DNA from: Gammaproteobacteria bacterium
GTDB taxonomy: Bacteria > Gemmatimonadota > Gemmatimonadetes > Longimicrobiales > Gaopeijiaceae
Direction: 5' to 3'
DNA length: 64,000 nt
Assembly (NCBI GenBank): GCA_028821195.1
Contig: JAPPHB010000015.1
Location: forward strand, 124,001 to 188,000
A model generated the notes under the pieces. That model saw nothing but the letters and a program-made list of their open reading frames with translations, searched no databases and was not told where the DNA came from. Made by a program: the position numbers and the translations under genes. Of the stretch, positions 53,655-64,000 are shown one piece after another (positions within the stretch are counted from its first letter, which is position 1; the number at the start of each line of letters is the position of its first letter).

Positions 53655-54046
53655 ATCTGCTTCTCGACACCCACATCTGGCTCTGGAGCCTTCTGGATCC
53701 CGGTCGGCTCTGCGGTCGGGCGCGCAACGAGCTGATCGACCCGGCGAACACCCTGGCGCTCTCATCCGTCAGCATCTGGGAGGCGCTGGTGCTGGCCGAG
53801 AAGGAACGCGTGCTGCTCCGCCCCGATCCCTGGAGCTGGATCCGCACCGCCCTGACCGTCCGGCCCTTGCGCGAGCTCCCCGTGACGTTCGACATCGCGC
53901 TCGGCAGCCGAACCGTCCGCCTGGGTCATGACGATCCGGCCGATCGCTTCATCGCGGCCACCGCCGTGGCGCACGGACACACCCTGGTCACCGCGGACGC
54001 GTCGCTCCTGCGGTGCCCCGACATCCGGGTGATGCCGGGCGTTTGA
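53651..54046 (+). CDS. vapC: VapC-type PIN-domain ribonuclease toxin
   Basis: The 131-aa PIN protein has NLLLDTHIWLWSL (Asp6), SSVSIWEALVLAEK (Glu), and DDPADRFIAATAVAHGHTLVTADASLL (acidic pair). The four acidic positions needed for RNase activity are present. GTG 53651 overlaps the antitoxin stop by four bases. It differs clearly from the PIN toxin at 36080. Confidence 0.9.
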   Translation: MNLLLDTHIWLWSLLDPGRLCGRARNELIDPANTLALSSVSIWEALVLAEKERVLLRPDPWSWIRTALTVRPLRELPVTFDIALGSRTVRLGHDDPADRFIAATAVAHGHTLVTADASLLRCPDIRVMPGV

Positions 54047-54058
54047 AGGCGATCGACT

Positions 54059-54412
54059 TTAGCCCCCGCGGGTGCCGTTCGGGACCGGGTGCTCCGGGGT
54101 CAGCAGCGCCGGTCGGAGGCCATCCTCGTAGCCGACGTCGAAGAGCATTCCCTCCGAGACTTCCCCCATCATCTTCCTTGGCTCCAGGTTGACGATGAAC
54201 AACGCCTGCCGGCCTTCGATCTCGGTCGGATCTTCGCGCTCCTGCTTCATTCCCGCGAGGATCGTCCGCTTGTGGTCGCCGAAATCGACCCTGAGTCGAA
54301 CGAGCTTGTGTGACCCTTCAACGTCGCTGACGCTCTCGATCGTGCCGACGCGGGCGTCAACCTGATTGACGACACCGATGTTGATGGTGGGCTTGACGCG
54401 TGCAGGCTTCAT
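54059..54412 (-). CDS. tRNA-binding (EMAP/CsaA-like) domain protein
   Basis: The 117-aa protein is a single OB-fold tRNA-binding domain, as in CsaA and the C terminus of methionyl-tRNA synthetase. Supporting segments are VDARVGTIESVSDVEGSHKLVRLRVDFG and FIVNLEPRKMMGEVSEGMLFDVG. CsaA proteins have chaperone-like or tRNA-related roles. It is divergent from the saccharopine-dehydrogenase-like gene and convergent to the FitA-VapC pair. Confidence 0.85.
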   Translation of the reverse strand: MKPARVKPTINIGVVNQVDARVGTIESVSDVEGSHKLVRLRVDFGDHKRTILAGMKQEREDPTEIEGRQALFIVNLEPRKMMGEVSEGMLFDVGYEDGLRPALLTPEHPVPNGTRGG

Positions 54413-54519
54413 TTCCGGCAACCCGATCCCTCTCCTGGAGCGTTCTCCGGCCGCGCCGATTCGCGGCCGCTGGCCAGCGAAAGGTAGACGCGAGCCCGGA
54501 AGCGTGGAAGCTTGACCGA

Positions 54520-55602
54520 ATGAAACGAAAGCTGATGATCTACGGCGCGACCGGCTACACCGGCCGGCTGGGTGCGGAGGAGGCGGTTGAAGCCGGCGTA
54601 CGGGCCCTGCTTGCCGGCCGCGATGCGGGGAAGCTCGGCGCGTTGGCCGATTCCCTGAGCGCGCCCCTGAACGCGGCGTCGCGGAGCGCACCGCTTGAGA
54701 CCCGGGCGTTCGGCCTGGACGAGCCAGCGGCCATCGCCGCGGCCCTCGGGGACGTCGACGTGGTGCTGCACTGCGCCGGCCCCTTCTCGCGGACCGCGCT
54801 GCCGATGTTCGACGCCTGCCTCCGGACCGGCACGCATTACGTGGACATCACCGGCGAGATCGCCGTCTGCGAGGCCCTCGCGGCCCGGGACGCGGAGGCG
54901 CGGGAGGCGGGGATCATGGTGCTGCCCGCCGCCGGCTTCGATGTGGTGCCGAGCGACTGCCTGATCGCGGATCTTGCCGCGCGGCATCCCGGCGCGCGCG
55001 TTCTGCGGCTGGGTCTCTTGGTCCGTTCCGGGGCCTCGCGCGGCACGATGAAGACTGCGCTGGAGGGCGTAAACGCGATGCGCATTCGGCGCGACGGTCG
55101 CATCACGCGGGTCGGCGCGGGCAGCTTGCGGCATGAGTTCGACTTCGGGCGCGGGCCGGCCGCGGCCCTCGTGACACCCTTGGCGGATGTCTCGACGGCC
55201 TGGTGGTCGACCGGCATCGAGAACATCGAGACCTACTATCGCGCCGGGAGAAGACTCCCGCAGCTGATGCGGCTGAGCCGGTGGTTCGGATGGCTGCTGG
55301 CCGGGCGGACGGCACAGGCCCTTCTGCGCAGATGGATCGACCGTGGACCCGAGGGACCGAGTGACGCGGAGCGCAGGACCAGCGAAGGGATCCTGGTCGC
55401 GGAGATCGAGGATGCGCGGGGCCGGCGCACCGCCGCCCGCATGCGCGTTCCCGATCCTTACGGATTCACCGCGAAGACCCTGGTGGCTATCGGGGTGCGC
55501 GTGCTGGACGGGGATTTCAAGGCCGGGTATCAGACGCCGTCATCGGCGTACGGCGCCGACTTCGTTCACGAGTTCGATGGTGTGGAGTGGGAGCCGCTCT
55601 AA
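54520..55602 (+). CDS. Saccharopine dehydrogenase-like NAD(P)-binding reductase
   Basis: The 360-aa protein has the Rossmann motif MIYGATGYTGRLGAEEA at residues 6-22, HCAGPFSRTALPMFDACLRTGTHY and the PAAGFDVVPSDCL signature of the saccharopine-dehydrogenase/trans-acting enoyl reductase group. The substrate is unknown. The TAA stop lies inside a 22-bp direct repeat whose other copy is the 3' end of the substrate-binding protein gene at 56164. That suggests this gene end once abutted it. Confidence 0.83.
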   Translation: MKRKLMIYGATGYTGRLGAEEAVEAGVRALLAGRDAGKLGALADSLSAPLNAASRSAPLETRAFGLDEPAAIAAALGDVDVVLHCAGPFSRTALPMFDACLRTGTHYVDITGEIAVCEALAARDAEAREAGIMVLPAAGFDVVPSDCLIADLAARHPGARVLRLGLLVRSGASRGTMKTALEGVNAMRIRRDGRITRVGAGSLRHEFDFGRGPAAALVTPLADVSTAWWSTGIENIETYYRAGRRLPQLMRLSRWFGWLLAGRTAQALLRRWIDRGPEGPSDAERRTSEGILVAEIEDARGRRTAARMRVPDPYGFTAKTLVAIGVRVLDGDFKAGYQTPSSAYGADFVHEFDGVEWEPL

Positions 55603-55624
55603 CGCGCCAGCCAGGTGCTGGTAT

Positions 55625-55951
55625 TCAGCCCTCTTTCGCGAGTCGGACGCTCGCAAGTCGATTCATGCTTACACCCTGTTCCGCCGCCTGTATGGCCAGG
55701 GCACGATGCGTCTCCGGTGGCACGCGCACCACGAACTTGCCACTGTAGAGGCGATCTGCAACCGGCTGCGGAGCCGTCTCACCGTTCGACTGCATGTCAG
55801 CGACGCAGTCGGCAACGAGTTGTTGGATTCCGGAAAGGGCCTCCCCGGGAGTCGGCGCCAGCCAGCTGAGCGACGGGAATTCGGCACATAGCCCTACATG
55901 CTCAGCATCTTCAGCAGACCACGTGATGCGGTAGGTGTAGTGGTCGGTCAC
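55625..55951 (-). CDS. hicB: HicB-family antitoxin
   Basis: The 108-aa protein has an N-terminal HicB fold (YRITWSAEDAEHVGLCAEFPSLSWLAPTPGEAL) and a C-terminal ribbon-helix-helix segment (GKFVVRVPPETHRALAIQAAEQGVSMNRL), as in DNA-binding HicB antitoxins. GTG 55951 overlaps the stop of a short upstream frame by four bases. No full HicA (GSHH-containing) toxin is adjacent, so it is either an orphan antitoxin or works with a reduced partner. Confidence 0.85.
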   Translation of the reverse strand: MTDHYTYRITWSAEDAEHVGLCAEFPSLSWLAPTPGEALSGIQQLVADCVADMQSNGETAPQPVADRLYSGKFVVRVPPETHRALAIQAAEQGVSMNRLASVRLAKEG

Positions 55952-56046
55952 TCCATGCCCTCCAGCTTTTCGATGGCCCGGAACCGAACACCCCTCGGGT
56001 TCTTGCGGAATGCCTCGATGGCTGCCGGTATCTCCCCACGCTTCAT
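55948..56046 (-). CDS. Short frame coupled to HicB; possible HicA remnant
   Basis: This 32-codon frame (MKRGEIPAAIEAFRKNPRGV...) ends in the GTGA overlap with hicB, which suggests real translation. The open frame continues upstream at least to about 56120 with TTG codons but no better ATG. The FRKNPRGVRFRAIEKL stretch resembles the N-terminal NPxxVRF segment of some HicA-like toxins, but the catalytic GSHH part is absent. It may be a truncated toxin or an unrelated short partner. Confidence 0.45.
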   Translation of the reverse strand: MKRGEIPAAIEAFRKNPRGVRFRAIEKLEGME

Positions 56047-56163
56047 GGTAGCATTAATGATACTAGGATCCAAGGTGACGGCTCCGCGGTCGATGCGGAA
56101 CTCCAACCTGGGCGGAATCCGTGAGCGGCCGAATGGCCGAATGGGGCGTGGTGGTTGCGGCGA

Positions 56164-57291
56164 CTAACGCGCCAGCCAGGTGCTGAAGCGTTCGTTCAGC
56201 TCGTCCTGGTGGTCGACCCAGAAGGCCCAGTCGTAGAGCAGGGCGCGCGCGGCATTCGCGGGGCTCGCCGGCATGTGAGGCTCCATCTCGACACCGGTAG
56301 CCAGGTGGGTCGTCACCAACGGCATGCCGGACCTGCGCGTGGGTGAGTATGAGATGCGGCGGCTGATCCGCGCGAGCGACTGGGCGCTGGTCGCAAAGCC
56401 CACGTAGCTCAGCGCCGCGTCGAGTCTCGGTGTGCCCCGGACGATCCCGATCTGACCGAAGGCGAGCAGCTGGCCATCCCAGATGATCACGAACGGCTGG
56501 TCCTCCAGAACCTGCGCGTTGAAGATGCGTCCGTTGTACGCGGTGCTCATCACCACTTCGCCGTCGGCAAGCATCTGCGGCGGCTGGGCGCCGGCTTCCC
56601 ACCAGATCACCTGGTCCTTGATCGTATCGAGCTTGTCGAAGGCACGGTCGAGCCCTTCGGGCATGCTCAGAGTCGCGTAGACCTGGTCGCGGGGCACTCC
56701 GTCGGCGAGCAGTGCAAACTCCAGATTCGCCTGCGCAAGACGCCGCATCCCGCGCCGACCCGGAAATCTCTGCAGGTCGAAGAAGTCGGCCATGGTAGCG
56801 GGCTTCTCGCCCGGGATAGTCTCCTCGTTGTAGACGATCACCGTGGACGCGTACAGGAAGGGGGCGCCGCAGACAGTCTGCGTCTCGGCAACGAAGTCCT
56901 CGGCTGCCGGCGTGCCGTCGTAACCGGGAGGCAATGCGTCGATGTCGATCGGCTCGAGCAGCCCTTCGTCGCACGCCTGCACCGCGTCGGCGATCTCCAG
57001 GCTGACCACGTCCCACTGGGTGTTGCCGATGTCCACCTGGGCGCGGATCTCGGCGAGCCCGCCGTGGTACGCCCCGAGGTTGACGGGGATGCCGGTCGCC
57101 TCGGTGAACGGGACGATGGTGGCTTCCTCAACGGCTCGGCCGTAGGAACCGCCCCATGACACGACGGTGATCGGCTCGGGCCGGTCCTGTCCGCAGGCGG
57201 CGGCGAGCATCACCGCGATGGCGGGAGTCAACGCCCTTCGCAATCCGCCGCCGTTGTTGAGGGATCGATCGACCTTCGGGTTTCCGGGCAT
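56164..57291 (-). CDS. Orphan extracellular substrate-binding lipoprotein (polyamine type)
   Basis: The 375-aa protein has a lipoprotein signal with Cys33 (LAAAC) and the class of fold used by spermidine/putrescine-binding proteins. Supporting segments are ITVVSWGGSYGRAVEEA, WDVVSLEIADAVQACDEGLLEPID, GAPFLYASTVIVYNEE and AYNGRIFNAQV. No permease or ATPase gene is nearby, so it must serve a transporter encoded elsewhere or act alone. Its last 22 bases are duplicated at 55599-55620 on the far side of the HicB cassette. Confidence 0.85.
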   Translation of the reverse strand: MPGNPKVDRSLNNGGGLRRALTPAIAVMLAAACGQDRPEPITVVSWGGSYGRAVEEATIVPFTEATGIPVNLGAYHGGLAEIRAQVDIGNTQWDVVSLEIADAVQACDEGLLEPIDIDALPPGYDGTPAAEDFVAETQTVCGAPFLYASTVIVYNEETIPGEKPATMADFFDLQRFPGRRGMRRLAQANLEFALLADGVPRDQVYATLSMPEGLDRAFDKLDTIKDQVIWWEAGAQPPQMLADGEVVMSTAYNGRIFNAQVLEDQPFVIIWDGQLLAFGQIGIVRGTPRLDAALSYVGFATSAQSLARISRRISYSPTRRSGMPLVTTHLATGVEMEPHMPASPANAARALLYDWAFWVDHQDELNERFSTWLAR

Positions 57292-57321
57292 CGAGTATCT
57301 TACTCTTCCGGGCCGGCTGCG

Positions 57322-57399
57322 TCATGCCGGTTCGGTGAAGGCCAAGTAGTAGCCGTTCGGGTCCTGGATTGCGAGCATTCGCCATCGGGAACGTACCAG
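57322..57399 (-). pseudogene. Remnant of a VOC/glyoxalase-family gene (3' end)
   Basis: The minus strand encodes RMLAIQDPNGYYLAFTEPA then a stop, a typical C-terminal strand of vicinal-oxygen-chelate proteins (xxxxDPDGYYLEF). Upstream the frame loses similarity within a few codons, so only the last 20 or so codons remain. It lies in the 206-base gap between the substrate-binding protein and the DUF4377 gene. Confidence 0.5.
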
Positions 57400-57497
57400 A
57401 CTGCACCGAATAGTATCGGAGGAGCACCGTCGGAACCCTGTTGCGATTCAGCGCGAGGTGCAGCGTGGGGGTGGCCTGTAGCGAAGGATGGACTCCA

Positions 57498-58277
57498 ATG
57501 CGCACCCGAAGCCTGGCGCTCTCCTGCCTGACGCCCCTGGCCCTGGCCGGCTGCGACCTTCTCGGGCCCGAGTACATCGAGACCCGCGAGGTGACCGTCG
57601 GGCCCACGCTGGCCAAGTGCTACGGCGTGGGTCCGCAGTCGTGCATGGTGGTTGACGGCGGGTTGTTCTACGACGGGATCGAAGGATTCGACTACGAGCC
57701 CGGCTACGACTATCGCCTCCGCATCGGCAAGTACGATCCCTGGGGCGGGGGAGAACCGCCGCAGGATGCCGGCCGGTACGCCTATCGTCTGCTGGAGCAA
57801 CTGGAGAAGACCGTCGCACCGTCCACCCCCGCAACCCTGTCGCTGGCTCCGACGCGGGTGACCTGCATCCAGGGTGACGACTTCTGCCTCGTGCTGGACG
57901 GCGAGCTCTATGACGACATGATCACCAGCTTCGAATACGAGGCGGGCGATCACTATATCCTCGATGCCAACAGGTATCGCGATGGCCGGTATCTGCTGAA
58001 CGAGATTACTTCGAGAACCAGGGCAGCGGGGACGGAAGAGGAGATTACCATCGATCGGCACCGGGTGGAGTGCGGCGACGGCCATCCCGGGTACTGCAAG
58101 GTCGTGAACGGCGCACCGTACCGCGGCGAGATCGTCGGCTTCCAGCCCGCGCACGACTATGACTACCGCCTGCGCGTCGAGCGGTTCAACTTGCTTCCCG
58201 AGGGTGTGACCCCGGCGCCTTACGTTCCGGCGTACGGTTACCGCTGGCTCGAAACCCTCGAACGCACGAGCAGCTGA
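57498..58277 (+). CDS. Lipoprotein with three DUF4377 repeats
   Basis: The 259-aa lipoprotein (lipobox ALAGC near residue 18) contains three copies of a DUF4377-like unit. Unit 1 has KCYGVGPQSCMVV and EGFDYEPGYDYRLRI, unit 2 TCIQGDDFCLVL and TSFEYEAGDHYIL, unit 3 ECGDGHPGYCKVV and VGFQPAHDYDYRLRV. Each has a pair of cysteines that could form a disulfide. Function is unknown; related domains are found in small stress-linked lipoproteins. ATG 57498 was chosen because the signal peptide begins there. Confidence 0.8.
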   Translation: MRTRSLALSCLTPLALAGCDLLGPEYIETREVTVGPTLAKCYGVGPQSCMVVDGGLFYDGIEGFDYEPGYDYRLRIGKYDPWGGGEPPQDAGRYAYRLLEQLEKTVAPSTPATLSLAPTRVTCIQGDDFCLVLDGELYDDMITSFEYEAGDHYILDANRYRDGRYLLNEITSRTRAAGTEEEITIDRHRVECGDGHPGYCKVVNGAPYRGEIVGFQPAHDYDYRLRVERFNLLPEGVTPAPYVPAYGYRWLETLERTSS

Positions 58278-58328
58278 TTCTTCCCGGGCCGGACCGCCGC
58301 CCGCGCGCAGACGACCGCGCGATGACCG

Positions 58329-58865
58329 TCAGCCAGGTGACCCGCTCTCGTTCCACTCCACCGCGTGCGGCACTCCTTCGCTCGCCAGCTCTTCCAGGAT
58401 GGCGTGCACCGCGTCCGCGAGGCGGTCGTCGAAGAGATGGGAGTGGTCGAGGTACCAGGCCACCCAACCCTCGCTGAGCAGGTGCTCCTTGAAGGAGCGA
58501 CGGTAGGATTCCCACATCTTCTCTTCCATGGCCCCGGTTTCCTGCTGGTAGACCAGGTTGCCCATGTGGCGAAAGATCGCCGTCATATAGGAGTTCCAGC
58601 GCAACCGCTCCCCGGCCGTGAGCCCGTCCGGGTCGTCGGCCGCCCGGGCGAGGAAGTCGGCCAGTTCGGGGTCCCGGAAGACGTGCTCGAGCAGCCGGAT
58701 ACTGTTCTCGACCATCGAGTTGAAGGTGGCCGCGCGTACGCTCTTCGTGTTGCGCTGCGTCTGCTCGATGCCGAGCCTCATCCGGCGCGCGACCAGAAGC
58801 AGCGAAGCCACGACGCCCACGGCACCGATGAACTCGCCGAGGTTTCCGAGGATGTCCAGGTTCAT
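58329..58865 (-). CDS. Membrane-anchored helical protein, unknown
   Basis: This 178-aa protein has one N-terminal membrane helix (EFIGAVGVVASLLLVARRM) and a helical C-terminal domain rich in Trp and acidic residues (AATFNSMVENSIRLLEHVF, WESYRRSFKEHLLSEGWVAWYL). This layout recurs in uncharacterised bacterial proteins. No catalytic motif is seen. It stands convergent to the DUF4377 gene and follows the propeller gene on the same strand. Confidence 0.65.
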   Translation of the reverse strand: MNLDILGNLGEFIGAVGVVASLLLVARRMRLGIEQTQRNTKSVRAATFNSMVENSIRLLEHVFRDPELADFLARAADDPDGLTAGERLRWNSYMTAIFRHMGNLVYQQETGAMEEKMWESYRRSFKEHLLSEGWVAWYLDHSHLFDDRLADAVHAILEELASEGVPHAVEWNESGSPG

Positions 58866-58907
58866 TCGGGAAGCGTCACCGAGGCGTGGCAGGTGAGTGG
58901 GGTTGAA

Positions 58908-60140
58908 TCAGCGCATCCCTTCCGGCAGACGCCTAACTGCCACGTAGGGCACATCCAGGTCGTCCGTCTCCACGAAGGCGACGAGCCCGTTCGGGCCGAA
59001 GGCGGAGGGCATCGCGGTGGATCCGGGCGGGAAGGTGCCCAGGTAGCGTCCGTCCGACGAAATGAGGTCGATGCGGTTGCCCTCCGTGTCCCCGTCGCCT
59101 CGGTGAAGGACCCAGATGGTGCCTTCCCAACTCGTTGTCAGGCCGACCACTACGGGGACCTCGTCGAAGAACTCCATCGCCTCGATCTGGCCGCGGCGCA
59201 TTTCTCTCATTTGCTGTTGAAACGAGTCGCCGCCGCGAACGGGCGCGAGTGCTTCCAGGCGCCGGTCGATCTCAGCCGCCCTGATGCGGCCCGTCACGGG
59301 GCGGGGTTGGAACCGACGGGTCAGGACCCGGGTTACAAGGCCGCCCGGCACCGCAGACTTGATCGCATACGTGGAAGAGTCGGTGTACACGAACGCTCCG
59401 CTGGGCAGTACTGCCGCCCTGAGCACCGGCCTGAATCCCTCCGCATCACCAGGGGGCCGCCACCCCGCGGCAACCGAGTCGATGCGGACCTCGTCGCCGC
59501 TCAGATCATAGCTCAGGACATGCCGGAACGAGGGTTCCGACGGCCCGTCGTCTCGATCGGCGGTCATTCTCACATGGCGGACCTCGGATGTCGCGAGGAC
59601 TCTATCCATTCCCGGGAAGGCCTGAATGCCGCCAATCATCGCAGCGCTCATCTGCGCACCTGGAAACCGGGCCATGCGTTCGAATTGGCCGTCGGCATCA
59701 AAGAGGGTGAATCCCATTTGTCCCAGGTCGTAGACGGTCACCCGCCCATCCCGCATGACCGCGAGCTGCAGCATTGGCGCGGTGTCGCTTCCAAACTCTC
59801 CGGGGCCTTGTCCTTCTCGCATGAACTGGCGCAACAGGTTGGCTTGCAGGTCGACGACATTAATCCGCACCGCCTCCGTGTCGAGGATGTAGAGGTTGCC
59901 GGCACCGTCGAAGCCGACCCCCGCGACGCGGCCGAAGGTGTCCCAGCCATCCCCATCCAGCGAGCCCACCCGGTAGATGTCCTCGAAGTCGGCGTCGAGG
60001 GGCCGGTCTTCGGCCGGGAGTTCGACTACTTCCTGGGCGGCGAGTGGATGGGCGAGCCCTGCGAGTATCACGATGGAGAGCGTGGCCATTGCGATGGCCG
60101 TCGCATAACTCGGGCGATCTTGCGTCGTCTTCCCAACCAT
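58908..60140 (-). CDS. Exported six-bladed beta-propeller protein (copy 4)
   Basis: The 410-aa protein has a signal peptide (cleavage near HPLAAQ, residue 36; an inner Met at residue 18 could also start it). Blades include GNLYILDTEAVRINVVDLQ, the marker REGQGPGEFGSD, and the C-terminal TDDLDVPYVAVRRL. Unlike copies 1-3 it has no lipobox and appears to be fully secreted or periplasmic. It follows the ATP-grasp gene by 38 bases on the same strand. Confidence 0.75.
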   Translation of the reverse strand: MVGKTTQDRPSYATAIAMATLSIVILAGLAHPLAAQEVVELPAEDRPLDADFEDIYRVGSLDGDGWDTFGRVAGVGFDGAGNLYILDTEAVRINVVDLQANLLRQFMREGQGPGEFGSDTAPMLQLAVMRDGRVTVYDLGQMGFTLFDADGQFERMARFPGAQMSAAMIGGIQAFPGMDRVLATSEVRHVRMTADRDDGPSEPSFRHVLSYDLSGDEVRIDSVAAGWRPPGDAEGFRPVLRAAVLPSGAFVYTDSSTYAIKSAVPGGLVTRVLTRRFQPRPVTGRIRAAEIDRRLEALAPVRGGDSFQQQMREMRRGQIEAMEFFDEVPVVVGLTTSWEGTIWVLHRGDGDTEGNRIDLISSDGRYLGTFPPGSTAMPSAFGPNGLVAFVETDDLDVPYVAVRRLPEGMR

Positions 60141-60178
60141 CGTTCGTCTCCTGCGGTGTTGCGGCTACGGCATCCCCG

Positions 60179-61165
60179 CTAACACGCGATGCGCTGCGGC
60201 CGAAGGCGCGGCATCGCCGTCCTGCGTACATACCGGGCCACCGCGCGCATGCCGTCGACGCCGACGCGGGCGCCGAACGCCTGATTGTAGTTGGTTGTGC
60301 CGTTGATGTCATACGTGTAGCGGTTGCCGCGGGCATCCTCCACGAATTCGATTCCGGCGATCTCGATCCCTTCCTCGATGCAGAGCCGGATGTACCTCCG
60401 GACCAGCGGGTCGCCGGCTGCGATCGGCGACGGGCTGAAGAGGTCGGCAGCACTGGTGCCACCCGCACCCGTCCAGAGGCTCTCCCGGTTCGTGGGCATC
60501 GGATTGCACGCATCCGAGGGGCAGAGTTCGAACCCCCCGGCCGTGGAACTCCGCATAGCGAACACGAAGCGGCCGCCAACGATCTCCACCCTCGTGATGA
60601 ATGGTTCGGCCGCGGGGATGTACTGCTGGAGGATCACCCTGGCGCCGGGCCCGGCGTCGAAGCTCCTGTCGTCAAGATGCTCTTCGAGCTTCCCGGGGTC
60701 CTGGAAGAGCCGGATGCCCAGGCCCTTGCCCCCCTGATCGTGCTTCGTGATGAACGGGCCATCGAAGGTTGCGGCCGCTGCGCGCAGATGCTCCCTTCCG
60801 ACGGCCAGCACCGTGCGCGGCGTCCGGATTCCGTGTCGCCGCAGGACGAGGTCCTGCCGAAGCTTGCTCATCTCCAGCTCAAAGGCGCGCAGCCCATTGA
60901 TGACTCGACGGCCGTGGGACTCCAGCCAATACAGAAGCTGGCGAGCCAGTTCCACCGTGTGGACGTGACCCCGGGTGTGCGAGGACGGGCTGATGCGGTT
61001 CATCCAGATGCCTTCGGGAGGAGGCGCCGACGGGTCGACGATCCCCTCGTTCACATGCACGAGGCGGACCCGGAAGCTTTCGCTCTCAAGTGCCTCCCGA
61101 AGGGGCGGAATCCAGACAGGATTCTCGTAGAGGACATTTATTGTCGGTAGCACAGGACTGATCAT
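60179..61165 (-). CDS. RimK-like ATP-grasp ligase
   Basis: The 328-aa protein is an ATP-grasp carboxylate-amine ligase. The ATP-lid segment ITKHDQGGKGLGIRLF lies near residue 140, the VILQQYIPAAEPFITRVEIVGG strand near 180, and the metal-binding GIEFVEDARG...YDINGTTNYN near 270-295. Such enzymes join an amino acid or peptide to a carboxylate (glutathione synthetase, RimK, peptide-modifying graspetide ligases). No other biosynthetic enzyme is adjacent. Upstream on the same strand are an intrinsic terminator and a Cys-rich mini-ORF, which suggest either cysteine-controlled attenuation or a ribosomal peptide substrate. Ribosome-binding site is weak. Confidence 0.83.
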   Translation of the reverse strand: MISPVLPTINVLYENPVWIPPLREALESESFRVRLVHVNEGIVDPSAPPPEGIWMNRISPSSHTRGHVHTVELARQLLYWLESHGRRVINGLRAFELEMSKLRQDLVLRRHGIRTPRTVLAVGREHLRAAAATFDGPFITKHDQGGKGLGIRLFQDPGKLEEHLDDRSFDAGPGARVILQQYIPAAEPFITRVEIVGGRFVFAMRSSTAGGFELCPSDACNPMPTNRESLWTGAGGTSAADLFSPSPIAAGDPLVRRYIRLCIEEGIEIAGIEFVEDARGNRYTYDINGTTNYNQAFGARVGVDGMRAVARYVRRTAMPRLRPQRIAC

Positions 61166-61216
61166 GGTTTGTCTCTGAGGTGCGGGCAGGGTGGACGGGG
61201 AGCGGATCGGAGCACG

Positions 61217-61248
61217 AAAAAACCGCCCGGATCGGCTGACCGGGGCGG
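61217..61248 (-). terminator. Intrinsic terminator in the ATP-grasp leader
   Basis: On the minus strand CCGCCCCGG (61248-61240), a nine-base loop and CCGGGCGG (61230-61223) form an eight-pair GC stem with one bulged C, followed directly by six T (61222-61217). It lies 34 bases after the Cys-rich mini-ORF stop and 51 bases before the ATP-grasp start, so it would block read-through into that gene unless prevented. Confidence 0.8.
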
Positions 61249-61281
61249 CTCGAAGGCGGCTTGAGCTCGGGACTCAGCGCA

Positions 61282-61380
61282 TCAACACACCCGGATCCAG
61301 GCGGAGCATGGACACGAGCAGCTACAGGTGCAGGTCGCTCCGCGGGCGCGGGCGGATCGGATGTCGGTTGCGTGGATCAT
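61282..61380 (-). CDS. Cys-rich 32-residue leader or precursor peptide
   Basis: ATG 61380 to TGA 61282 encodes 32 residues: a basic N-terminal half (MIHATDIRSARARG) and a C-terminal half with alternating cysteines (ATCTCSCSCPCS), ending in WIRVC. Six of the last sixteen residues are Cys. There is no clear ribosome-binding site. Its position, just before an intrinsic terminator and an ATP-grasp gene on the same strand, fits a cysteine-sensing leader peptide. A peptide substrate for the ATP-grasp enzyme is the alternative. Confidence 0.5.
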   Translation of the reverse strand: MIHATDIRSARARGATCTCSCSCPCSAWIRVC

Positions 61381-61398
61381 GGCGAGAGAAGATGTCGG

Positions 61399-61408
61399 AA
61401 ACCGGTTT
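61399..61408. promoter_or_regulatory. Palindrome upstream of the Cys-rich mini-ORF
   Basis: AAACCGGTTT is a perfect ten-base palindrome 18 bases upstream of the mini-ORF ATG. It may be an operator, but short palindromes also arise by chance. Confidence 0.3.
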
Positions 61409-61477
61409 GGGGGACAAGCGCAGCCTGTCAGCGGTCTCAGCTAAGGCGATCCACCGTTGGCCTTTCGTGCGAATCGC

Positions 61478-61660
61478 TCATCCGCCGAGAGCCCGCAAAA
61501 CTGCTTCAGGCTCTCGGTCGATGACCGTGAGCAGGACACGGGCTGCGCGGTCGGGCACCCGCCGTCCCTGTTCCCATTCCTGAACGGCCCGTACATGGAG
61601 GCCGAAACTGTCGGCGAACTTCGTGGCCGAGGCGCGCGCGAATCTCCAGGAAGCGATCAC
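61478..61660 (-). pseudogene. Remnant of a HigA/NadS-type HTH antitoxin gene
   Basis: The minus strand encodes [42 protein letters not shown], a clear match to the helix-turn-helix of small XRE-type antitoxins. In those proteins it follows IRARLGLSQ. Here the DNA just upstream encodes FLEIRARLG in another reading frame, with the switch near 61627, so the gene is frameshifted and probably lost a few codons. No RelE-like toxin is found beside it. Confidence 0.6.
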
Positions 61661-61807
61661 GCTCTTCCTCGAAACGGCGTCCCCCGAAGAGATCGAAAGA
61701 CGCTGGCGCAGCGAAGTCTATGTGCCCAGGTCGAGGTCGCGGTTGGGTAGGCCCGACGGCGTCGGCGCGGCCGTCCGCGCCCGCTCGATTGTCTGGATGG
61801 GGTGGCT

Positions 61808-62479
61808 TCACGGAAGAATCAGCGGCCCCAGCCACAGGACCCATAAAGGACCACCCACGGCCACGCTGCCCACCAGCGTCGGGACGACGATCCGGATCCT
61901 CCGGCCTCGGGGAATCGCTGTTACGAGGAACCAGTATCCCAACAGGAGACAGGTGAGACCGAGTAGAAGGAGAAGGGTCTCGGGGATCCCCGTGAGCGCC
62001 GCCAACCAACCCTCGTCCGTGTTCGATGGGAACGGCAGCCGACCGCGGAGCTTCGAGACCAGGATCGGAATCGCTCCCAGCCAGCGCAGCGGGGTCACGA
62101 GCCCGACTCCGAGAACCACCGAAAGCGGGCCCGGACCGAAACGGCGGACGGCAAGCACGCAGGCGATGACCGTCAGGTAGGTGACGATCACTCCCGCAGC
62201 CACGCCGACCGCCACCTGCCACGGTTGAACGATCGCCGCCGCAGCCTCCACGTCCCCCGCCCGCACGAGCCTGCCGAACTCCCCGGAACCGGACCAGCTG
62301 GCAGAGCCGTACCGCAGGACCGGATCGGGGAATCGGAACGCGACGAACGCCGCGAAGTGCCCGAGTTCGTGTACCAGCACCGCGATGGGGAAGGCGATCG
62401 CGCCGCCGGTGACGCTGGTCAGCCATTTGCCGGATCGTAGCCAACCTGTCGGATCGCTGGGGGCTGGTGGTGTCGTCAG
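61808..62479 (-). CDS. Membrane metalloprotease-like protein (HExxH, M50-like)
   Basis: The protein has the zinc motif HELGH inside its first membrane helix (AIAFPIAVLVHELGHFAAFV) and four or five further membrane segments, the layout of site-2-protease-like M50 proteins. A later Asp ligand motif is not obvious. The first standard start (GTG 62380) would begin three residues before the HExxH and cut the helix. An in-frame CTG at 62479, two bases after the upstream stop and ten bases after GGAG, gives a full 223-residue protein and is preferred here. Confidence 0.65.
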   Translation of the reverse strand: MTTPPAPSDPTGWLRSGKWLTSVTGGAIAFPIAVLVHELGHFAAFVAFRFPDPVLRYGSASWSGSGEFGRLVRAGDVEAAAAIVQPWQVAVGVAAGVIVTYLTVIACVLAVRRFGPGPLSVVLGVGLVTPLRWLGAIPILVSKLRGRLPFPSNTDEGWLAALTGIPETLLLLLGLTCLLLGYWFLVTAIPRGRRIRIVVPTLVGSVAVGGPLWVLWLGPLILP

Positions 62480-62480
62480 G

Positions 62481-63650
62481 TTACCGATTCTCCACTAGCG
62501 CGTGCACCGCGACCCGCTGGACATCCACGTCATCCAGGGTTCGTACCAGCGCCCAATCCCGGCCGATGTCCAGCAGGAGCGTGCGGGGAGGCAGCACGAG
62601 CGTACGGATCCATGTGCCATCCGCGGCGAAGGCGAACCACTCACTTGGCTCTCCCGGGCGAACGTAGTCGTGCACCCATAGTACGCCGTCGTCTCCGATC
62701 ATGAGTCTGTCGTAAGCGGGAAAGACATCGGGCACGTTCTCGCTTTCCCATGCCCACCGGCGCTCGAAGCGTGCGCGCCAGTCGGGATTGCCGCCACGCC
62801 GGTAGCTTCCCTCAAGCGCGTCACGGTATCGGTCGACATCCCTCTGTGTCACGTTCAGATCCGGCCCCTGCCAGCGGATCCGCCGAATCGTCTCGCCCGT
62901 CCACCCAATCAGTTCCACCTCGTAGTTCTCGCTGCTTCCAAACCAGATGCCCTCGGTGGCCACAGCAATCGCTACGTTGTGCGCCCAGATGCTTCCGGGC
63001 ATGGCGTCCCCGGGTCCGAGGTATCTCCTCTCCGAGCCCTGGATCCGCTGGCGCACCGTGGTGGCGGCGGTGTCGCCCAACTCCACCCAGCCAAGAGTCA
63101 TCAACTCACGGTAGAGTTCTTCGGACGCGAGGCCCTCAATGGTTTGGTCGCTGTCTCCCGTGAAGCCCAGGCGCCCGTTCGGTGCGCACCCAAACCGCCG
63201 GATCGGCAGTCCGTTGTACAGGAGACGGTAGTCGTCGACGAGATCCCCTTCGTCGTTGAACACGGTGACCCGTGGGGTCCATATGTCGTAGACGACGATC
63301 CGGCCCGCGCTCACGCACCCGTGGACGATCTGGACATTCTCGAATTCCCCGGGACCTTCGCCTTCGCGGCCGCGGCTCCAAAGATGTTCACCGTCCGAGC
63401 CGAAACGCTGGATGCGGAAGTTCATCCGGTCGGACACTACCACGCTGCCATCGGCGAGCAGCGAACCAGCGTTGATCTCGCCGAAGAGGTATTCGTCAGG
63501 TCCGTCGAGCATCCCGACGGACAGCACTGGATCGGCCGACAGGCGCACTTCAGCGGCGGGTCGCGACTGAATGGACTGCGCGCCGATTAGTCGACTTCCG
63601 GTGGCCAGTGCCAGTGCCGGCAACGTGGCTGCCAGAACGAAAGACTTCAT
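62481..63650 (-). CDS. Exported six-bladed beta-propeller protein (copy 5)
   Basis: The 389-aa product has a signal peptide (MKSFVLAATLPALALATG, cleavage near GAQS). Propeller blades include the marker REGEGPGEFENVQI and the C-terminal LDDVDVQRVAVHAL, matching copies 2-4. It is directly upstream of the membrane metalloprotease-like gene and probably co-transcribed with it. No enzyme motif is visible. Confidence 0.75.
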   Translation of the reverse strand: MKSFVLAATLPALALATGSRLIGAQSIQSRPAAEVRLSADPVLSVGMLDGPDEYLFGEINAGSLLADGSVVVSDRMNFRIQRFGSDGEHLWSRGREGEGPGEFENVQIVHGCVSAGRIVVYDIWTPRVTVFNDEGDLVDDYRLLYNGLPIRRFGCAPNGRLGFTGDSDQTIEGLASEELYRELMTLGWVELGDTAATTVRQRIQGSERRYLGPGDAMPGSIWAHNVAIAVATEGIWFGSSENYEVELIGWTGETIRRIRWQGPDLNVTQRDVDRYRDALEGSYRRGGNPDWRARFERRWAWESENVPDVFPAYDRLMIGDDGVLWVHDYVRPGEPSEWFAFAADGTWIRTLVLPPRTLLLDIGRDWALVRTLDDVDVQRVAVHALVENR

Positions 63651-63754
63651 TGCGACGACTCCGCGTGCTCGGGAGACCCGGGAAGCTGCGAATGGTAAGG
63701 CGCAGGGGTCCGGGCCACAACTCGAACGCGCTGGACTTCCGAGACGCTTCCGAG

Positions 63755-64000
63755 TCACGTTGTCCCCATTCGCTCCGCGGCCTCGATGAACCGGTCACGG
63801 ATGTCGGCCGCGACCTCCTTGACCTGCCGCGGGGCACGAATCTGATTGCCTGCGCGTTCCTCGAGGGCGACGACGAGAGGCCAAAGGTCGGCGGACCTGC
63901 CGGTATCGTCGGCGAAGACAGCCAGCAGATCGCGGGGGGAGATTCCGGCTCCGACCAATGCCGGCACCAGGCGTAGCATTTCGTGTATCGTTGCTTCGTG
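63755..64000 (-). CDS. Partial hypothetical protein at window edge
   Basis: The minus-strand frame is open to the window end (81 residues seen, ending IEAAERMGTT). An ATG at 63979 could be internal or the start. The protein is mostly helical, with EMLRLVPALVGAGISPRDLLAVFADD and an acidic/basic C-terminal helix. I do not recognise a family. Confidence 0.5.
   Translation of the reverse strand, partial: HEATIHEMLRLVPALVGAGISPRDLLAVFADDTGRSADLWPLVVALEERAGNQIRAPRQVKEVAADIRDRFIEAAERMGTT

Follow-up and report, generated by a model that had tools for sequence, protein, structure and literature searches.

In the trp and his attenuators of enterobacteria, four leader segments form the alternative pairings 1:2, 2:3 and 3:4, and the choice among them is set by a ribosome on regulatory codons. 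Here we describe a leader of similar design in front of a RimK/LysX-like ATP-grasp ligase gene, located in a 64,000-nucleotide stretch of contig JAPPHB010000015.1 (the window) whose nearest named relatives are mostly Gemmatimonadota, a bacterial group of soil and sea. The roughly 250 bases preceding the ligase gene very probably form a ribosome-controlled transcription attenuator which, judged from sequence comparison, would be on when charged tRNA-Cys is scarce.

Attenuation by cysteine codons as such is already known. Polycysteine leaderless short open reading frames (ORFs) occur in mycobacteria, and Cys-responsive attenuation has been proposed for them (Canestrari et al. 2020, as cited in passages of PMC9094748 and PMC13236596), while the cys leader peptides of Actinobacteria lack conserved terminator hairpins according to the available part of PMC1262725. 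The window's leader is like these in its short upstream ORF (uORF) with a Cys run, its predicted leaderless start and the Cys-responsive attenuation proposed for it. It is unlike them in its target gene and phyla and, as far as the excerpted account of the actinobacterial leaders goes, in its conserved intrinsic terminator and antiterminator, to which a protector is added in the main ligase family; the likeness is one of description. The uORFC-8-2 motif ahead of cysS in Rhodobacterales has, on bioinformatic evidence, a uORF with two tandem Cys codons and, beyond it, an intrinsic terminator (PMC8632094, in the portion available). Our locus shares with the motif so described the order of Cys codons and intrinsic terminator, as well as the bioinformatic nature of the evidence, but it has 3-10 Cys codons per uORF, an ATP-grasp target and a covarying antiterminator. 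With trp/his-type attenuators it has in common the three alternative pairings under ribosome control, and it departs from them in its Cys codons, predicted leaderless start and single ligase gene.

Layout of the leader and its alternative pairings

The initial annotation of this stretch had described a 32-codon Cys-rich minus-strand ORF, a strong terminator 34 bases beyond it and an ATP-grasp gene 51 bases further on. The ORF is present by direct reading, and the ATG of the ligase (61165) does lie 51 bases past the U-tract; the terminator likewise stands, although its stem, as drawn here, begins 32 and not 34 bases after the uORF stop codon. The features are as follows.

61417-61412, minus strand: -35-like box TTGTCC of the best promoter of the region, with a 17-nucleotide (nt) spacer; its TTG is kept in the leader alignment
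61394-61389, minus strand: -10-like box CATCTT, ending 8 nt 5' of the uORF ATG
61380-61282, minus strand: leader peptide ORF (uORF) of 32 codons, MIHATDIRSARARGATCTCSCSCPCSAWIRVC, with counterparts in relatives
61364-61354, minus strand: segment 1 (protector), ACATCCGATCC, inside uORF codons 6-9
61306-61332, minus strand: regulatory run of five alternating Cys codons (17, 19, 21, 23, 25), by direct reading
61298-61287, minus strand: segment 2, GGATCCGGGTGT, directly 3' of the Cys run, a partner for segment 1 or segment 3
61249-61238, minus strand: segment 3, the terminator 5' arm, GCCGCCCCGGTC
61233-61222, minus strand: segment 4, the terminator 3' arm, GATCCGGGCGGT
61222-61217, minus strand: U-tract of the intrinsic terminator
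61165-60179, minus strand: RimK/LysX-like ATP-grasp ligase of 328 amino acids, the regulated gene

A sixth Cys codon, read directly like the five of the run, stands at position 32 of the uORF, and the terminator stem reads GCCGCCCCGGTC-AGCC-GATCCGGGCGGT (61249-61222). In the minimum-energy fold of the window's leader, segments 1:2 and 3:4 are paired. The complementarity that had been noticed between the bases after the Cys cluster and the terminator 5' arm is real: GATCCGGG (61297-61290) pairs with CCCCGGTC at seven of eight positions, one of them a wobble, and the helix extends to GATCCGGGTG:CGCCCCGGTC, in which nine of ten positions are paired with two wobbles (counted by eye). Segment 2 repeats the first eight letters of the terminator 3' arm, GATCCGGG, and therefore competes with segment 4 for segment 3.

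From this arrangement we propose the following mechanism. RNA polymerase would start at or beside the uORF AUG, making the uORF leaderless. When cysteine is ample, the ribosome would reach the stop codon and cover segment 2, allowing the 3:4 terminator to form; when Cys-tRNA is scarce, it would stall in the Cys run and occupy segment 1, upon which segments 2 and 3 would pair, no terminator would form and the ligase would be made. A leader that is not translated would pair 1:2 and terminate by default.

Conservation, covariation and predicted switching

The main-family loci comprise 23 (L001-L023, the window's own included) from a search of 147 genomes and 80 from named genomes, partly the same genomes. 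Under a fixed rule, a Cys uORF was an ATG ORF of 8-60 codons with at least three Cys in seven residues, no more than 420 nt upstream of the gene, and a terminator was a T4 tract plus hairpin downstream of the uORF. Upstream of the gene, all 23 loci of the 147-genome search (at least 54% identity) carry a Cys-rich uORF together with a GC-rich stretch that is followed by a T-run. With redundancy kept, the fixed rule finds the uORF before 60/72 orthologues of at least 54% identity and uORF plus terminator before 54/72; among the non-redundant orthologues, the window's included, the counts are 32/44 and 26/44. A sister ATP-grasp family in Gemmatimonadota (about 30% identity) has the uORF at 21 of the 27 loci whose leaders were examined, 17 of them with a terminator; these loci come from 37 sister ligases found in the 147 genomes, a short partial match in genome G127 being left out. 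As a control we took the other mechanically called ORFs of at least 200 codons in the 80 loci L048-L127, and a Cys uORF precedes 3/380 of these, with a terminator in 0/380.

The uORF, intrinsic terminator and gene are thus kept together in Gemmatimonadota, in lineages titled Myxococcota, Deltaproteobacteria or Proteobacteria, and before the sister family. Carriers in records titled Myxococcota, Myxococcales, Deltaproteobacteria, proteobacteria or, in one bin, Rhodobacterales are L070-L072, L076-L078, L080, L081, L083, L085, L086, L099 and L107, and L098, from a bin titled Candidatus Poseidoniales, is also one. The titles of L048, L069, L098, L108 and L118 (Gammaproteobacteria, Candidatus Poseidoniales, a Klebsiella pneumoniae metagenome-assembled genome) misfit the nearest relatives of the ligase, and these bins may be mislabelled or mixed. 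The alignment of upstream regions that had been suggested as a check gives conserved Cys codons (3 to 10 per uORF) with variable flanks, in records of several phyla and in the sister family. One subgroup (L011, L012, L014 and L021) has a further T5-6 tract, located after the uORF and before the terminator at about -80 to -90 relative to the gene.

A simple terminator scan of the window gave 4 against 3.5 expected, which is not significant, and the whole leader folds no better than shuffles (z 0.27), so the case is built on conservation and not on folding energy. Helices were compared by pairing each leader with its own terminator arm and with re-paired partners in 20000 permutations, a test in which ancestry is uncorrected. 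The 24 main representatives were hand-picked from the 103 loci; L070 gave no hairpin, leaving 23 for the 2:3 helix, and the automatic terminator choice, visibly wrong for several loci (L015, L022, L086 and L145 among them), was kept. The antiterminator that had been guessed from one sequence shows covariation with the terminator arm when divergent loci are compared: in the main family (n=23) own arms reach 485.6 against 420.2 for re-paired ones (standard deviation 15.5), a value attained in 2/20000 permutations, and in the sister family (n=21) 424.4 against 386.7 (standard deviation 16.4), attained in 291/20000. Pairs that have changed and still match include GACCGGGGCA:TGCCCCGGTC (L076), ACGGGGC:GCCCCGT (L077) and GCCGGGGG:CCCCCGGC (L107). 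The protector helix 1:2 is supported in the main family (n=24; 27/20000). A plain RNAduplex test on the long GC-rich segments gave noisy results, with cross pairs at least as good in a mean share of 0.31 and 0.26, and the terminator-arm helix test was used in its place.

In 20/24 main and 14/21 sister leaders the -10 box of the best promoter lies 4-11 nt upstream of an in-frame start codon, compared with 132/1200 and 160/1050, respectively, in shuffled controls. This spacing leads us to predict a leaderless uORF, with transcription beginning on or beside its AUG. The attenuator picture of the initial annotation stands, with three additions that it had omitted: a protector helix, a promoter immediately ahead of the uORF and, described below, the sister-gene monooxygenase operon.

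Ribosome positions were modelled by ensemble folding of the window RNA after removal of everything 5' of the ribosome's leading edge. The predicted 3:4 pairing is 0.90 without a ribosome and 0.91 with one at the stop codon, and it falls to 0.02, 0.01 and 0.04 with the ribosome at Cys19, Cys21 and Cys23, where 2:3 pairing is 0.45-0.46. In the 23-locus folding described further below, loss of 2:3 at the stop codon is built into the calculation, because segment 2 is there covered by the ribosome.

The ligase family and a sister operon

The ligase of the window matches the RimK Pfam family (PF08443) with 31 bits against a gathering cut-off of 21, and scores 59 bits for the RimK family alpha-L-glutamate ligase (TIGR00768), below the curated cut-off of 143.4. 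At least 7183 relatives of the family scored at E-value 1e-10. It is set apart from LysX/ArgX and RimK ligases by its low identity to them (15-20%), by a score below the NCBIfam cut-off and by an F-x-L-C-P-x-D-x-C motif at residues 212-220, in which F212, L214, C215, P216 and C220 are invariant and D218 nearly so among 47 sequences of 30-100% identity. Four alignments to solved RimK/LysX chains end just before this motif, which may be a family-specific catalytic or metal site.

The sister family has a recurrent partner. An SfnG/SsuD-like flavin monooxygenase of the Bac_luciferase type (PF00296) is present in 32/147 genomes at E-value 1e-60 or better, and by coordinate comparison it lies directly downstream of a sister ligase on the same strand in 31/32 of these genomes and at 31/37 sister ligases. 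Among the six sister ligases without it, those of G066, G072, G093 and G116 are near a contig end and those of G045 and G070 are not; the SfnG-like gene of G118 has no ligase match. Its NCBIfam matches all fall below cut-off, the best being SfnG dimethylsulfone monooxygenase (256-265 bits against 383) and the next alkanesulfonate monooxygenase SsuD. The best solved relatives are 3rao (an unnamed luciferase-like protein) and 8vw6 (an alkanesulfonate monooxygenase), with weak matches to YtnJ, MoxC and DszA chains. SfnG and SsuD are described as cleaving C-S bonds in the accessible part of PMC10863075. The tight sister ATP-grasp/monooxygenase pair can be seen in Gemmatimonadota at, for example, L195:7005-9061, and G088 is among the carriers. 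Genome G029 holds both ligases, and each is preceded by a Cys uORF and terminator of its own (L022, L145). In G088 the sister ligase, which likewise follows a Cys uORF and terminator, has the same sequence as a protein assigned to Longimicrobium terrae, a named species in which the claim is testable.

No neighbour of the main-family gene is widely conserved; past gene-overlapping frames, no neighbour family occurs in more than 17/80 named loci. The gene directly downstream in the window (58908-60140) has a weak ScyF/NHL match below cut-off, and its family is found in 7/80 loci. Upstream of the leader, a 60-codon ORF (61478-61660, minus strand) shows a sub-threshold likeness (29.7 against 61.8 bits) to the helix-turn-helix end of MqsA-type antitoxins and is possibly a remnant. 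Elsewhere, 57441-58277 on the plus strand matches DUF4377, with a similar segment in more than one copy by eye. An Rfam scan of 54000-64000 at gathering scores returned zero matches.

Attenuators of the trp/his type with this polarity switch on genes that supply the amino acid. This, together with the SfnG/SsuD-like gene adjoining the sister ligase, makes it most likely, by analogy, that the ligase family serves organosulfur or cysteine salvage and not cysteine consumption. We tentatively suggest, as one possibility and not the probable outcome, that the whole family of ATP-grasp ligases is dedicated to opening a hitherto undescribed route of cysteine/organosulfur salvage: the ligase would couple a sulfur compound to an amino acid or to a carrier, much as LysX does with LysW or as N-acetylation does in the YxeK and CmoJ routes, the SfnG/SsuD-like monooxygenase would cleave the C-S bond, and the leaderless four-segment Cys attenuator would have been kept with the gene across Gemmatimonadota and Myxococcota. 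In Bacillus subtilis these YxeK and CmoJ routes recover cysteine from its S-modified forms, which are N-acetylated, cleaved by a flavin monooxygenase and deacetylated, as set out in the parts available of PMC9706529 and PMC10863075. The sister operon is like these routes, so far as they are described there, in its flavin monooxygenase, given the weak matches to YtnJ, MoxC and DszA. It is unlike them in having an ATP-grasp ligase as partner where the amino group is otherwise acetylated first, and in its best matches, which are SfnG by family and 3rao and 8vw6 among solved chains. That an ATP-grasp step replaces the N-acetylation is a guess by analogy.

Weighing the attenuator against its alternatives

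Several observations weigh against the reading of the leader as a Cys attenuator serving sulfur salvage. The window's own 2:3 pairing is not special, as the arms of 13/22 other loci pair equally well with its leader, and the protector helix is unsupported in the sister family (3292/20000). With the ribosome at Cys17 or Cys25, the terminator still largely forms at equilibrium (0.75 and 0.91). When 23 loci are folded, a mid-run stall compared with no ribosome shifts the 2:3 pairing clearly in a minority only: it rises clearly in L001, L006, L022 and L086 and slightly in L085, L099 and L107, falls in L083, and is about unchanged in most others, whether high (L010, L016-L018, L023, L057, L076, L080), low (L078) or zero (L015, L098). 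Several leaders outside Gemmatimonadota have no clear U-tract. By the fixed rule, 12/44 non-redundant orthologues are without a Cys uORF, and among relatives at 43-54% identity it is found in 4/31, the 27 without it being 12 Arthrobacter rows and 15 others (the Arthrobacter rows all lack it except for one weak hit); the switch is therefore not universal. No recognised sulfur gene stands beside the window's own ligase, and the SfnG-like partner is absent from the window's genus at E-value 1e-60. Lastly, a Cys uORF precedes 0/16 cysS genes of the window's relatives and its own genome and 0/27 cysK/M-like genes of the relatives (30 loci fetched, 3 dropped by the ORF rule), so that no Cys regulon is visible.

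A general Cys regulon was accordingly rejected as a candidate. In the genome to which the window belongs, the pattern TGYNNNTGYNNNTGYNNNTGY is matched 17 times and its reversed control 26 times. Two of the 17 overlap and lie inside the window's uORF (loci L043, L044), and outside it 0/15 have a T5 run within 250 nt past the ORF end, contiguous-Cys patterns not being searched there.

An attenuator of the same build could also belong to a ligase that consumes cysteine, as a thiol or peptide synthase, with a homeostatic leader and a sign opposite to that of our proposal. This is unlikely, since the order of Cys run, segment 2 and terminator gives an on-when-starved response in folding, and the sister ligase adjoins a monooxygenase whose nearest families cleave C-S bonds, a supply function. 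Somewhat less probable still is that the sensor is the nascent Cys-rich peptide itself, responding within the ribosome exit tunnel to a metal or a thiol oxidant and not to the supply of Cys-tRNA. Metal binding by CxCxCxC motifs is conceivable, and a Cys-containing uORF is said to be used for copper sensing, but the motif ranges from alternating (CTCSCSCPC) to contiguous (CCCC) with 3-10 Cys, which fits the counting of codons better than a fixed ligand site, and in the folding the switch responds to stalls at the very Cys codons of the run.

The alternative that had been suggested is that the ligase modifies the peptide as a ribosomal precursor, in the manner of graspetides. Across lineages the Cys run appears as TCTCSCSCPC, CICRCSCSC, SSCCCCTCL, CACCCCTCP, CVCCCC and MCCCMC, with little shared but Cys, and the flanks are unconserved past close relatives. 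The nucleotide block GATCCGGGTGTGTTGATGCGCTGA, around GATCCGGGTG, changes little among Gemmatimonadota orthologues; most of them translate it as WIRVC-stop, and L018, L017 and L057 use another frame, giving DLGVLMR, DSGVAMR and RTRGVTMR, respectively. This shifting frame indicates that RNA rather than peptide is kept; it speaks against a conserved peptide product and would call for an RNA function. No conserved precursor leader peptide, as expected of a graspetide locus, was found among the uORFs, whose peptides share little but Cys outside close relatives. We consequently rejected a ribosomally synthesised and modified precursor, which has very little probability. A chance Cys-rich ORF before an ordinary terminator, with which the background-level terminator scan would agree, has a negligible one in view of the uORF counts (32/44 against 3/380) and the covariation of the antiterminator.

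Cysteine attenuation, linking the ligase to cysteine as first suggested, is thus supported by conserved Cys codons, variable flanks and a covarying antiterminator. Within the literature covered, which included few subscription papers, no report tied ATP-grasp to SfnG, the matches for ATP-grasp with alkanesulfonate monooxygenase or with a cysteine attenuator were unrelated by title, and neither leader-peptide attenuation in Gemmatimonads nor cysteine attenuation in Longimicrobium was found. Against this literature the target family and the phyla look new, as do the predicted combination of a leaderless uORF with a four-segment switch built on an intrinsic terminator and the link to an SfnG-like operon. 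The locus would stand as a clear example of a classical four-segment Cys attenuator run by a uORF that is predicted to be leaderless. It would also provide a physiological signal for a large uncharacterised ligase family, and it suggests that Gemmatimonadota have a salvage pathway for organosulfur compounds or cysteine.
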